64,000 bases of DNA from contig NZ_LFLU01000001.1 of the NCBI RefSeq assembly GCF_001189965.1, forward strand, positions 62,001 to 126,000, in the 5' to 3' direction. Source of the DNA: Herbaspirillum rhizosphaerae. GTDB lineage: Bacteria > Pseudomonadota > Gammaproteobacteria > Burkholderiales > Burkholderiaceae_D. Positions within the stretch are counted from its first letter, which is position 1; every line of letters starts with the position of its first letter. The notes below the pieces were generated by a model. The model was not told the DNA's origin, made no database searches, and saw nothing but the letters and a program-made list of their open reading frames with translations. Positions 40,261-53,139 of this stretch are shown here, in pieces. Both the position numbers and the translations under genes were made by a program.

Positions 40261-40441
40261 ATAAATAGTTGTTGTAAGTTATATGCGGCGAGCTGATCGG
40301 ATAACCGATCGCATGATTTGCATTGTATAAGAGCGGGCGTTTATCATGCCTGCACACCGGCAGCGCGAAAATCCAAGTACAGTAGCGTTTTTGTCGTAGT
40401 TGTTGCCGTACAGATCAATTCCACAAGACAGACGAATCCCC

Positions 40442-41011
40442 ATGACCGACAAGTCGTTTGAACAGTCCGTGATTGCCGAGCGTAGCATGCTGGTCAAGTT
40501 CGCGCGTTTGCATGTGCAGGAAGACGCGGCCGAGGACGTGGCGCAGGAAACCTTGCTGGCAGCCTTGCAGAATCCTGCGGGTTTCTCCGGCAAATCGTCG
40601 CTGCGCACCTGGCTGGTCGGCATCCTCAAGCACAAGATCGTCGACCTGATCCGCAAGGAAAAGAAATATGTCCAGGTCACGCAGGAAGAAACCGGCGATC
40701 CGACCGACTTCGACGTCCTCTTCGACGAAACCGGTCACTGGGCCGAAGCGCCTGCCGATTGGGGCAATCCGGCGGAAACCCTGCAGCAGTCGCAGTTCTT
40801 CGACATCATGGATTTTTGTGTCAACAAGCTTACGCCGGTGATGGCGCGGGTATTTTCTATGCGCGAGCTGTTTGAGTTCGAGATCGCCGAGATCTGCAAG
40901 GAACTCAAGATCACCACCAGCAATTGCAGCGTGCTGCTGTATCGCGCCCGCATGCAACTGCGTCTGTGCCTCGACCAGAACTGGTTCGACGGCCGCACCA
41001 GCCGCGCATGA
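40442..41011 (+). CDS. ECF-type RNA polymerase sigma factor
   Basis: Sigma-70-family group 4 factor of 189 aa. Region 2 includes AAEDVAQETLLAALQNP and SLRTWLVGILKHKIVDLIRKE; region 4 includes LFEFEIAEICKELKITTSNCSVLLYRARMQL. The two are joined by an acidic linker of about 35 residues. No anti-sigma or zf-HC2 gene follows: the tRNA-Arg gene begins 52 bp after the stop. The start at 40442 is the ATG that matches the family N-terminus; no clear ribosome site. Regulon unknown. Confidence 0.87.
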   Translation: MTDKSFEQSVIAERSMLVKFARLHVQEDAAEDVAQETLLAALQNPAGFSGKSSLRTWLVGILKHKIVDLIRKEKKYVQVTQEETGDPTDFDVLFDETGHWAEAPADWGNPAETLQQSQFFDIMDFCVNKLTPVMARVFSMRELFEFEIAEICKELKITTSNCSVLLYRARMQLRLCLDQNWFDGRTSRA

Positions 41012-41025
41012 TTCTGCCACGCGCC

Positions 41026-41054
41026 TTTCCATACCTGCCGACACCCGCTACAAT
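41026..41054 (+). promoter_or_regulatory. Candidate promoter of the tRNA-Arg gene
   Basis: TTTCCA (41026-41031) and TACAAT (41049-41054) are separated by 17 bp, with the mature tRNA 5' end 10 bp after the -10 box. The -35 element is weak. Confidence 0.45.
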
Positions 41055-41063
41055 AGCGCCCAC

Positions 41064-41387
41064 GCCCCCGTAGCTCAGTGGATAGAGCGATCCCCTCCTA
41101 AATACAATTGGGCACCGGCATCCGAAAGGCGCCGCGTGAATGGAGTCAAATTCGGTGAACCCTGACAGCGCTTGCCATGTTGATGTTGCAAACGGCTGCT
41201 GGCGATACCGAGCCAAGCCGCACCGGGTTGTTATCGTGCGGAAGGTGTAGAGACTAGACGGCTCCGGCCTGCGGACTGCAAGTCTATGGCCAAGGTATAG
41301 TCCAGACCACAAACAAGTTATTTGGTGGCGAAAGCCATGGTGGTACGAAGGGATAGGTCACACGTTCGATCCGTGTCGGGGGCGCCA
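41064..41387 (+). tRNA. tRNA-Arg(CCU), interrupted by a group I intron
   Basis: Exon 1 is 41064-41099 and exon 2 is 41348-41387, joining to a 76-nt tRNA with encoded CCA (41385-41387). The acceptor stem is GCCCCCG/CGGGGGC with discriminator G. The D stem is GCTC/GAGC. The anticodon stem is ATCCC/GGGAT around the loop CTCCTAA, giving anticodon CCU (41097-41099), which reads AGG. The T arm is CACACG-TTCGATC-CGTGT-like and complete. The gene is split after anticodon base U36. All helices form only when 41100-41347 is removed. Confidence 0.93.
41100..41347 (+). ncRNA. Group I self-splicing intron (IC3-like) in tRNA-Arg(CCU)
   Basis: 248 nt without an ORF. The 5' exon ends in U and the intron ends in G, as required. 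P1 can pair exon CCU with GGG at 41110-41112 (G.U at the splice site). P4 is TCGGT (41152-41156) with ACCGA (41207-41211). The conserved R core GTAGAGACTAGACGGC (from 41247) and S core AAGGTATAGTCC (41292-41303) give P7, GACTA (41252-41256) with TAGTC (41298-41302). Blocks such as GTCAAATTCGG, CCGAGCCAAGC and GAAGGTGTAGAGACTAGACGG closely resemble the Azoarcus tRNA-Ile intron as I remember it. Confidence 0.92.
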
Positions 41388-41398
41388 GGCACAAAAGT

Positions 41399-41434
41399 AA
41401 AAAAGCGCAGAAGATGTTGTCTTCTGCGCTTTTT
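41399..41434. terminator. Bidirectional terminator between tRNA-Arg and mrcA
   Basis: AAAAAAGCGCAGAAGA and TCTTCTGCGCTTTTT form a 15-bp stem with a 5-nt loop, flanked by an A-run and a T-run. It serves the tRNA and the convergent PBP gene. Confidence 0.92.
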
Positions 41435-41457
41435 CTTTTGGAGAACCGGTTAGCGTG

Positions 41458-43893
41458 TCAATGACCTTGATAGAGCTTTTCGCGGTCGACCTGTGCAGGC
41501 GCCGACGCCGGTGCGCCGGTCGAGCCTGACGGCGCAGGCGTCTCCGAGTTCGGATTCTTCGACCAGCCGAAGAAGTTGGACAAGGCATCCACTACGCCGC
41601 CGCCGTCCGTGCCCAGCGAAGCAACGAAGCCGTCGCCCGGCGCGAAGTTGTCGTAGTAGGGCTCGTTGTCGATAAACCTGATGCCGGCCGGCGCAGGCAT
41701 GTCGAATTGCGGCACGCCCTTGAGCGCCACACCCATGTAATCCACCCAGATCGGCAAGGCCAGTTGTGCGCCGAATTCCTTGCTGCCCAGCGTCTTGGGC
41801 TGGTCGTAACCCATCCACACCACCGTCGCCAGCGTGCGCTGATAGCCGGCGAACCAGCCGTCCATTGCATCGTTGGTGGTGCCGGTCTTGCCTGCCAGGT
41901 CGGTGCGCTTGAGCGTGTTGCTGCGGGCGCCGGTGCCGCGTTGGGCAACCGATTGCAGCAGGCTGGTCATGACATAGCTGTTGCGCTCGTCAATCGCACG
42001 CGGCGCGTTGCTGCCGACGATCAGCGGATCCGCCTTGGACAAGACCTTGCCGCGCGCATCGGCGATTTGCGTGATCAGGTAAGGATTGATCTTGTAGCCG
42101 CCGTTGGCGAAGATGGCGTAGGCAGACGCCAGTTGCAGCGGCGTGGTCTGGCCGGCGCCCAGCGCCATCGGCAGGTAAGGCGGCACCTTGTCGACGTCGA
42201 AACCGAAATGGCTGGTGATGAAGTCTTGCGCATATTTCACGCCGATGGCGTCGAGCGTGCGGATCGCCACCAGGTTGACCGACTTCTGCAAGGCGGTGCG
42301 CATCGACATCGGACCGGCCGGCGGATCGTCATCCTTCGGTTCCCAGTTCGGCTGGCCGTTGCCGGCAGGGTAGGACACCGGCGCATCGTTGATGATACTG
42401 GCCGGGCCGAAGCCTTTTTCCAGCGCCGCCGAATAGATGAAGGGCTTGAAGGTCGAGCCCGGCTGGCGCCATGCCTGGGTCACGTGGTTGAAGTTGTTCT
42501 GCGTGAAGTCGAAGCCGCCGACCAGTGCGCGGATCGCGCCGTTTTGCGGCGTCACCGACACCAGCGTGGCTTCCACTTCCGGCAATTGCACGATCTGCCA
42601 GGTCTTCTTGGTATCCTGCATGACGCGGATCACCGCGCCCGGGGCAATGCGGATTTCCTTCTTGGCCTTTGGGCCCAGCGCTGCGGCAACGAACTTGAGC
42701 GTGTCGCCGCTCAGCGTGATCTTGTCGCCGCTGCGGATCACCGCCTGGATTTGCTTGGGATCGGCCGAGACCACGACGGCGGCGAGGATGTCGTCGTTGT
42801 CCGGGTGATCGTCCATGGCGTCGTCGATGGCCTGCGAGCGGTCATCGTCGCCGGACGGCAATTCGATGGTTTCTTCCGGGCCGCGATAGCCGTGGCGGCG
42901 GTCGTAATCCATCACGCCCTTGCGCACCGCGTCATAGGCGGCCTTTTGATCGGCGGCATTGATGGTGGTGGTGACGGTGATGCCGTGGGTGTAGGTGTCT
43001 TCCTTGTATTGCGCATAGACCATCTGGCGCACCATTTCATTCACGTATTCGGCATGAACGTTGTACTGGTTGCCGGGCGCGCGCACCTGGATGTCTTCTT
43101 TCACGGCGGCGTCATATTGCGCCTGCGTGATGTATTCCAGATCCAGCATGCGTTGCAGGATGTACTGCTGGCGGATATGGGCGCGCTTGGGGTTGACGAT
43201 CGGGTTGTAGGCCGACGGCGCCTTGGGCAGGCCGGCCAGCATGGCGGCCTGCGCCAGCGTCACGTCCTTGATGTCCTTGCCGAAATAGGTGCGGGAGGCG
43301 GCGGCAAAGCCGAAGGCGCGTTGCCCCAGATAGATCTGGTTCATGTACACCTCAAGGATCTGGTCCTTGCTCAGCGTCGCTTCGATCTTGTTGGCCAGCA
43401 GCACTTCATAGAGCTTGCGCGAGAAAGTTTTTTCTTTCGTCAGGAACACATTGCGCGCCACTTGCATGGTGATGGTGCTGGCGCCCTGGCTGGCGTGGCC
43501 TTTGATCAGGTCGGTCGCGAGTGCGCGCGCGATGCCGATGTAGTCGATGCCGCCATGTTGGTAGAAACGATAGTCTTCAATCGCCAGCACTGCGTTCTTC
43601 ACGTTGGCGGGGATGGCCTCGAGTTTCACCAGACTGCGCTTTTCTTCGCCGAATTCACCGAGCAGGACATTGTCGGCGGAGTAGATGCGCAGCGGAATCT
43701 TCGGACGGTAGTCGGTGATGACGTCCAGCGACGGCAGGCGCGGGTTGATGAAGATCAGCGCGTAGGCGATGATCAGCGCGCCGATGATCGCCAGCCCGAG
43801 GACGGAAAAGGCGAGGAATTTGGCGATGTTGGGATTCAGAAAACCGCGTTGACGGGAAAACTGGGGCAAACGAGAGTTAAAGCGCATGGTCAT
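41458..43893 (-). CDS. mrcA: Penicillin-binding protein 1A
   Basis: Bifunctional class A PBP of 811 aa that polymerises and crosslinks peptidoglycan. An N-terminal TM helix (about 24-48) is followed by the GT51 glycosyltransferase domain (AIEDYRFYQHGGID with catalytic Glu, GASTITMQVARN, KIEATLSKDQILEVYMNQIYLG). An OB-type insert follows, then a transpeptidase domain with nucleophile Ser in PGSTFKPF, SVN-like KSVNLVAI and KTGT. The ATG at 43887, two codons in, is an alternative start. Confidence 0.95.
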   Translation of the reverse strand: MTMRFNSRLPQFSRQRGFLNPNIAKFLAFSVLGLAIIGALIIAYALIFINPRLPSLDVITDYRPKIPLRIYSADNVLLGEFGEEKRSLVKLEAIPANVKNAVLAIEDYRFYQHGGIDYIGIARALATDLIKGHASQGASTITMQVARNVFLTKEKTFSRKLYEVLLANKIEATLSKDQILEVYMNQIYLGQRAFGFAAASRTYFGKDIKDVTLAQAAMLAGLPKAPSAYNPIVNPKRAHIRQQYILQRMLDLEYITQAQYDAAVKEDIQVRAPGNQYNVHAEYVNEMVRQMVYAQYKEDTYTHGITVTTTINAADQKAAYDAVRKGVMDYDRRHGYRGPEETIELPSGDDDRSQAIDDAMDDHPDNDDILAAVVVSADPKQIQAVIRSGDKITLSGDTLKFVAAALGPKAKKEIRIAPGAVIRVMQDTKKTWQIVQLPEVEATLVSVTPQNGAIRALVGGFDFTQNNFNHVTQAWRQPGSTFKPFIYSAALEKGFGPASIINDAPVSYPAGNGQPNWEPKDDDPPAGPMSMRTALQKSVNLVAIRTLDAIGVKYAQDFITSHFGFDVDKVPPYLPMALGAGQTTPLQLASAYAIFANGGYKINPYLITQIADARGKVLSKADPLIVGSNAPRAIDERNSYVMTSLLQSVAQRGTGARSNTLKRTDLAGKTGTTNDAMDGWFAGYQRTLATVVWMGYDQPKTLGSKEFGAQLALPIWVDYMGVALKGVPQFDMPAPAGIRFIDNEPYYDNFAPGDGFVASLGTDGGGVVDALSNFFGWSKNPNSETPAPSGSTGAPASAPAQVDREKLYQGH

Positions 43894-52756: not shown

Positions 52757-52788
52757 AAAAAAAGCTCCTGTCGAAACAGGAGCTTTTT
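52757..52788. terminator. Terminator of cspA
   Basis: AAAAAGCTCCTGT and ACAGGAGCTTTTT form a 13-bp stem around CGAA with A/T runs on both sides. It terminates the minus-strand cspA mRNA and could also back up icd termination. Confidence 0.92.
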
Positions 52789-52808
52789 AGAAGCGTCTTA
52801 ATACGAAA

Positions 52809-53012
52809 TTAAGGAGCCTGGATGTTGGAAGCTTGCTTGCCTTTAGGGCCTTGCGTGACTTCGAACTGAACTTTTTGACCTTCTTTGAGGGTCTTGAAGC
52901 CGTTCATCTGAATTGCCGAGAAGTGTGCGAACAAATCTTCACCGCCGTCGTCCGGAGTGATAAAGCCAAAGCCCTTAGAATCGTTGAACCACTTGACTGT
53001 ACCTGTTGCCAT
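52809..53012 (-). CDS. cspA: Cold-shock-type RNA chaperone
   Basis: CspA-family protein of 67 aa. The RNA-binding motifs KGFGFI and LFAHF are present in a single five-strand cold-shock domain ([20 protein letters not shown]). The start at 53012 is the family start; six extra codons from 53027 are not needed. GAAAG is upstream. A leader of about 100 nt rich in G-runs and a CTCGCGAG palindrome may fold. Confidence 0.95.
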
Positions 53013-53111
53013 AAAAGCATCTTTCAATTAATAAAAAATCACACGAGCCGTTAAAGCAAGAAGCCTCGCGAGATTAAAACGTCCGCAGCCCCCCTTAAAC
53101 TTGCCCCCTTC

Positions 53112-53139
53112 GTATTAACAAGCAGTAACTACTTATCAA
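53112..53139 (-). promoter_or_regulatory. Candidate cspA promoter
   Basis: On the minus strand TTGATA (53139-53134) and TAATAC (53117-53112) are separated by 16 bp, placing the start about 100 nt before the cspA ATG. It lies in the 342-bp cspA/clpS divergent region, which has no gene. Confidence 0.5.

Follow-up and report, generated by a model that had tools for sequence, protein, structure and literature searches.

The question raised by this locus is whether the insertion that splits a tRNA-Arg(CCU) gene in the window (the whole analysed stretch of 64,000 nt from Herbaspirillum rhizosphaerae) is a working self-splicing intron, and from where such an intron reached this tRNA. Using ARAGORN with introns allowed, the gene was resolved into a 5′ exon that terminates with the anticodon CCU (41064..41099), an insert of 248 nt (41100..41347) placed between tRNA positions 36 and 37, and a 3′ exon with an encoded CCA (41348..41387), all on the plus strand. 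The spliced exons give a 76-nt tRNA-Arg(CCU) with a full cloverleaf and CCA, which confirmed the complete tRNA and the boundaries proposed in a sequence-only reading of this DNA. Several group I signs listed in that reading were located as claimed: U is the final base of the 5′ exon (41099), G is the final base of the intron (41347), and the two strands of P7, GACTA and TAGTC, start at 41252 and 41298, respectively. The insert carries no homing endonuclease gene, for which it is too short.

Upstream of the gene, a sigma-70-like promoter on the plus strand (41026..41054; TTTCCA, 17 nt, TACAAT) matches the consensus at 9 of 12 positions. Two promoter-like sites, the other one within the gene, were found in a 601-base stretch against a shuffle mean of 0.3, and TACAAT stands at the same place in all ten relatives inspected, five with a filled and five with an empty site. 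Downstream, a weak terminator-like hairpin (41399..41435; one found against a shuffle mean of 0.8) was detected on the minus strand only, and a similar hairpin is present in the inspected relatives; lying between the tRNA on the plus strand and a converging gene on the minus strand, it may be shared by both. The promoter-like site and the weaker hairpin therefore make the gene look like its own transcription unit. Its neighbours, both named by eye from their translations, are a sigma-factor-like ORF upstream (40400-41011, plus strand) and the converging penicillin-binding-protein-like ORF downstream (41458-43893, minus strand). Elsewhere in the window, an Rfam scan reported a cspA thermoregulator (RF01766, 94.2 bits) at 52757-53137 on the minus strand.

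All the group I core helices are present in 41100-41347. The internal guide triplet GGG (41110..41112) pairs with the CCU of the 5′ exon, leaving a U.G pair at the splice site, and P1 is extended by pairing of UU (41108-41109) with AA (41100-41101). P3 is formed by 41142..41147 with 41260-41265 and P7 by 41252..41256 with 41298-41302. P2, closed by a GAAA loop (41116..41134), P5 (41166..41169 with 41195-41198) and the P9 domain, again with a GAAA loop (41306..41344), were read in an alignment of 26 introns; P4 (41152..41156 with 41207-41211), P6 and P6a (41212..41246) and P8 (41266..41291) were read both in this alignment and in a second one of 34 introns. Judged by its structural features, with P5 as one hairpin and GAAA loops present, the intron is a possible member of subgroup IC3; IC3 introns are described in PMC11835236 as lacking P5(a-d). 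The unguided fold of the pre-tRNA contained every pair of P1 (five of five, extension included), P2, P3, P4, P5, P6a, P8, P9, P9a and the anticodon stem, and lacked P6 (0 of 3 pairs) and P7 (0 of 5), which forms a pseudoknot and so lies beyond what the program can draw. The minimum free energy of the pre-tRNA was not better than that of shuffled sequences (z = -0.20; 40 of 100 shuffles fold as well).

Covariation was measured on a structure named by hand, pseudoknot included, in two sets: the window intron with 25 relatives, all in tRNA-Arg(CCU), and 34 intron cores from several tRNA hosts. In the set of 26, 98.3% of the cells were paired and 14 of the 54 pairs carried double changes; none of 500 shuffles scored as high on any of five measures, a comparison that, here as in the second set, is inflated by the kinship among the aligned rows. 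Pairing fell to 23-43% when the partners were slid by one to three columns, controls over which a structure drawn from one of the aligned sequences has an advantage. The helices that covary among these same-tRNA introns are P2, P6a, P8 and P9; P3 and P7 are invariant, so that this set is uninformative about them. Across hosts, 97.8% of the cells were paired and 20 of 30 pairs showed double changes, with no shuffle out of 500 as high on four measures and one on the fifth; both sides had changed in four of the six pairs of P3 and in three of the five of P7. The two pseudoknot helices were paired in 100% of the cells in both sets. The U ahead of the insert and the G at its end are found in 26 of 26 introns, whose exons rejoin to tRNA-Arg(CCU) in every case, and the core is nearly constant among them, with a flanking gene 78-92% identical to that of the window (27 other alignable loci). 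Anatomy and covariation are in this way directly established, and the ARAGORN call together with the covarying core helices bears out the proposal that tRNA-Arg(CCU) is split in its anticodon loop by an ORF-less group I intron.

The covariance model RF00028, suggested in the sequence-only reading as a check, gave a different result. A permissive scan of the window scored the intron at 18.1 bits (E 0.031) with a cut-off of 50, there was no group I match in the window at the gathering score, and the model had no match in the whole genome at E 0.001; on Rfam alone, therefore, the claim would fail the reading's own test. Among 38 distinct loci that carry such introns, seven reached the cut-off, four in a first scan and three in a second: none of the 11 loci of Herbaspirillum and genus g33, three of nine Arg(CCU) loci from other classes of the phylum, one of five Arg(CCU) loci of Comamonadaceae type (in the second scan), the one Arg(UCU) intron and two Ile(CAU) introns. 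We thus rejected RF00028 as arbiter of group I identity, since it is too insensitive; the shortfall is a limit of the Rfam model and not the lack of a defining group I trait. The tRNA itself was overlooked, as had been anticipated. Default ARAGORN, which allows no introns, found no tRNA anywhere in the window, and the Rfam tRNA model missed every interrupted tRNA among the loci given, with the empty-site control L075 reported at 65.7 bits.

When 198 genomes, among them the own one, were searched by DNA sequence, the whole interrupted gene was found in 26, of which 24 belong to Herbaspirillum and two to genus g33 of the same family. Among 34 Herbaspirillum species, 24 have the intron, nine have an exact empty site with the intact junction CCTCCT|AAGGG, and the one without a match is represented by a genome that is 63% complete. 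The insert is not a chance feature: an intron stands at the same place in 23 other species and the junction is intact in nine. Each of the 33 species with a match has one CCU gene, and in each of the 24 intron species the tRNA query hit a single place at E 1e-5 or better; a second match appeared at a looser limit in one of them (G018). In the own genome (55 contigs, given as 100% complete), the Rfam tRNA model had 48 matches, the interrupted gene being absent from them; read by ARAGORN, these include Arg tRNAs with anticodons CCG, UCU and ACG (two copies) and no CCU, so that no second tRNA of this kind was found in the genome. The exact empty sites and the lack of a detected back-up gene are likewise direct observations.

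In a tree of the flanking gene, built from 28 of 35 loci (21 filled and seven empty; seven flanks that do not align, five with the intron and two empty, were excluded), at least two changes are required to explain where the intron is present, and, provided that the midpoint root is correct, the empty species sit inside the filled ones. Such a pattern is compatible with an old intron that was lost in one group, with either a regain or repeated loss in addition. G021, which lies within the empty group, has an intron nearest to that of G003 (92.4% identity, with 88.7% in the flank); a regain by transfer was considered for it and dropped, since repeated loss explains the pattern equally well. The Herbaspirillum-type junction pattern occurs in 27 of 392 genomes of the family and in two of 44 genera, and among named genomes in 27 stretches, 16 labelled Herbaspirillum and 11 with other labels that include Ottowia, Polaromonas, Ramlibacter, Variovorax and Xylophilus; these counts are lower bounds, because the pattern demands one exact exon. 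Seven of the 11 stretches were compared with the core model and six match it. No stretch with this junction was found in viral contigs. The seventh stretch compared with the core model, from an Oceanospirillaceae MAG (L179) found by the junction pattern, was set aside, having no match to R1, a 138-position core model built from 34 introns, which has a single match in the whole own genome, the window intron.

We propose that the gene would be transcribed as a precursor tRNA-Arg(CCU), in which the intron would fold into a small group I ribozyme whose guide GGG pairs with CCU, the anticodon that closes the 5′ exon, with U36 in the U.G pair. A guanosine bound at P7 would then attack after U36, the freed 5′ exon would attack after the terminal G, and the joined exons would form the single CCU tRNA detected in this genome. 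We infer from the known family that the reaction takes place, that it needs GTP and that it functions in vivo; Bartonella bacilliformis has a tRNA-Arg(CCU) intron, BbgpI, reported in PMC7717549 to splice in vivo and in vitro. From its sequence and its relatives, the window intron is a real group I intron and very probably an active one, and we consider it very likely that self-splicing removes it to yield the genome's only detected CCU tRNA.

Two other readings were weighed against self-splicing. The gene could be dead and its group I intron decayed, with AGG read by tRNA-Arg(UCU). A tRNA-Arg(UCU) is indeed present in the genome, AGG is a rare codon (49 out of 17547, spread over 25 of the 49 window ORFs chosen by length and GC3 rather than by a gene caller) and the RF00028 score is low; against decay, joining the exons restores a tRNA in all 26 copies, the core hardly varies, double changes preserve the helices, and all 33 matched species show one CCU gene each, interrupted in 24 and intact in nine, so that we consider this reading very improbable. 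Removal by proteins, in the manner of archaeal or eukaryal tRNA introns, would suit the place of the insert, next to the anticodon being the canonical site of protein-removed introns according to PMC4033280. The length of the intron and its complete group I core speak against it, as does the description of bacterial tRNA introns in the same source as self-splicing group I introns, and we give protein excision practically no credence. With self-splicing retained, a narrower matter is whether the host depends on it to decode AGG, as the sequence-only reading had suggested it may. That the interrupted gene is the sole CCU tRNA found agrees with such a dependence. The intact tRNA-Arg(UCU), which could decode AGG by wobble, weakens it, and strict dependence therefore does not follow.

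Self-splicing introns in tRNA genes have been known since the 1990s, and the window intron belongs to this known kind. The tRNA-Arg(CCU) family is traced in PMC7717549 to Agrobacterium (1992) and to other alphaproteobacteria (Paquin 1999, whose title, as cited there, names horizontal transmission and transposition); the Bartonella host tRNA had, according to the same paper, been unannotated. Our intron shares with the alphaproteobacterial ones the host tRNA, the site after the anticodon and the guide GGG, yet it is only 56-65% identical to 12 Arg(CCU) introns from other classes of the phylum (217-314 nt long) and stands apart from them in the tree. The sequence-only reading had seen a special likeness to the tRNA-Ile(CAU) intron of Azoarcus. 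Three Ile(CAU) introns from the sampled genomes, which we take to be of the Azoarcus-type group IC3, the Azoarcus sequence itself being outside the comparison, share with the window intron the core layout, the P9 GAAA loop, a GNRA-like P2 loop and a guide for the anticodon triplet; they differ from it in having the guide GUG for CAU, where the window has GGG for CCU, and a length of 204-212 nt. At 53-63% identity they are no closer to it than 36 Leu(UAA) introns (55-68%) or the 12 Arg(CCU) ones, and the special likeness was not upheld. The proteobacterial tRNA-Leu(UAA) introns have the same core and guide logic but are inserted after U34 and carry the guide GAG. Among the papers listed by a literature search and judged by titles and the beginnings of abstracts, none dealt with Herbaspirillum tRNA introns, which is not proof of absence, the lists being capped and most subscription papers lying outside the collection, and none was a bench test of an intron from this branch. 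The Herbaspirillum/Comamonadaceae branch and its presence or absence by species are new.

The model R1 gave 48 matches in 41 of 398 sampled Pseudomonadota genomes; a later run of the core model was made without the window's copy and the three weakest matches (L176, L177 and L178). The hosts are tRNA-Leu(UAA), Leu(CAA), Arg(CCU), Arg(UCU) and Ile(CAU), the last at two sites, as read from ARAGORN output together with the flanks; two matches had no ARAGORN call, two calls were not used, and the names Phe, Ser and His, due to misplaced splice sites in Leu(UAA), Ile(CAU) and Arg(CCU), were corrected by hand. Related introns were also seen, as single cases, in tRNA-Ser(UGA) (L079, genome G053) and in tRNA-Arg(UCU) (L132, genome G537). 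In three tRNA-Leu(CAA) introns (L096, L167 and L171) the 5′ exon seems to end in C, so that C-G replaces U.G. Six introns stand after U33, before the anticodon (L091, L094, L095, L172, L173 and L174), five in tRNA-Ile(CAU) and one in tRNA-Leu(UAA). Outside chromosomes, similar introns were observed in a tRNA-Lys(UUU) of Gordonia phage Daredevil (L099; NC_048021.1, about 41.8-42.1 kb) and in a tRNA-Leu(UAA) of Agrobacterium phage Atu_ph07 (L100; MF403008.1, about 112.9-113.3 kb), with no tRNA among the annotated features shown at either locus; according to a 2014 review (PMC3984707), every phage intron known until then lay in a protein-coding gene. An Acinetobacter plasmid (L101; CP033531.1) has a tRNA-Leu(UAA) with a similar intron and an aminoglycoside resistance gene nearby, and DNA similar to this locus was found on four further plasmids, from Acinetobacter, Aeromonas, Klebsiella and E. 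coli.

Read in fixed alignment columns of the 90 introns placed in a tree, the guide is GGG in 45 Arg(CCU) introns and one Arg(UCU) intron, GAG in 41 Leu or Ser introns and GUG in three Ile introns. It starts with G in 90 of 90, and its middle base is complementary to exon base -2 in 90 of 90, with the exon triplets assigned by host class; this triplet, whose middle base fits the host exon throughout, is a new observation. A separate search of the flanks found the expected exon ends in 90 of 90 rows checked, a slightly different set from which L073 and L074 (read elsewhere, in the 26-intron set), L137 and the six U33 introns were left out. A fit between guide and exon is expected, because no group I intron works unless it pairs with its exon; the informative point is that a three-base guide suffices across hosts. 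The 90 fits do not stand for 90 independent events: on a tree built without the guide columns, the middle base need change no more than four times (three in a set of 80 rows).

The 90-row tree was obtained from 99 rows by excluding the six U33 introns, the two phage introns and one without an identified host. In it, the 12 Arg(CCU) introns from other classes of the phylum, which we infer to be alphaproteobacteria, group in a clade (98/97) that joins 18 Leu(UAA) introns (98/96), of which 16 come from the other classes, one belongs to the order of the window and one is carried by a plasmid. The introns of Herbaspirillum and the other beta Arg introns fall on the opposite side of a weak central branch (77/93), together with the Ile(CAU), Ser(UGA) and Arg(UCU) introns and five Leu(UAA) introns. 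A single origin of all beta Arg(CCU) introns (p-AU 0.408) and their union with Ile(CAU) (p-AU 0.393) are neither supported nor rejected. An earlier tree (135 core columns, 99 rows), which placed the Herbaspirillum introns beside Ile(CAU) (81/98) and the Arg introns somewhat differently, was set aside as poorly resolved, with 16 of 96 inner branches starred.

The tree suggests repeated invasion of tRNA-Arg(CCU), which we judge more probable than a single one. The Herbaspirillum intron could instead share one lineage with the Agrobacterium-type intron, passed on by descent or by transfer inside this one host gene. The two share tRNA, position and guide GGG, and one clade of all 45 Arg(CCU) introns is not rejected on 90 rows (p-AU 0.127, or 0.243 without the guide columns). 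This single lineage is at odds with the grouping of the other-class Arg clade with Leu(UAA), away from the beta introns, across the weak dividing branch (77/93), and the single clade is rejected (p-AU 0.041, and 0.028 without the guide columns) after dropping ten long rows that were picked once the first tree had been seen; we regard it as rather unlikely. A wider reading, to which we give somewhat less than an even chance, is that one ORF-less family changes its tRNA host through the middle base of the guide (GGG for the CCU of Arg, GUG for the CAU of Ile, GAG for the CUU or CUC of Leu and Ser) and that it invaded tRNA-Arg(CCU) independently in alphaproteobacteria and in the kin of Herbaspirillum.

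For Herbaspirillum, these results uncover an annotation gap: a tRNA gene interrupted in 24 of 34 species is unseen by default ARAGORN, as tested in the window, and by the Rfam tRNA and intron models, as tested in the own genome and in 11 loci of this branch. For the family of introns, the guide-to-exon rule makes a change of host directly testable, and the filled and empty sites within one genus, together with the fit between guide and exon, are natural material for such tests. A GMG/CNU guide-tag system has been made in the laboratory from the Azoarcus ribozyme (PMC6274277); host change by the middle base, if true, would be a natural version of that code.
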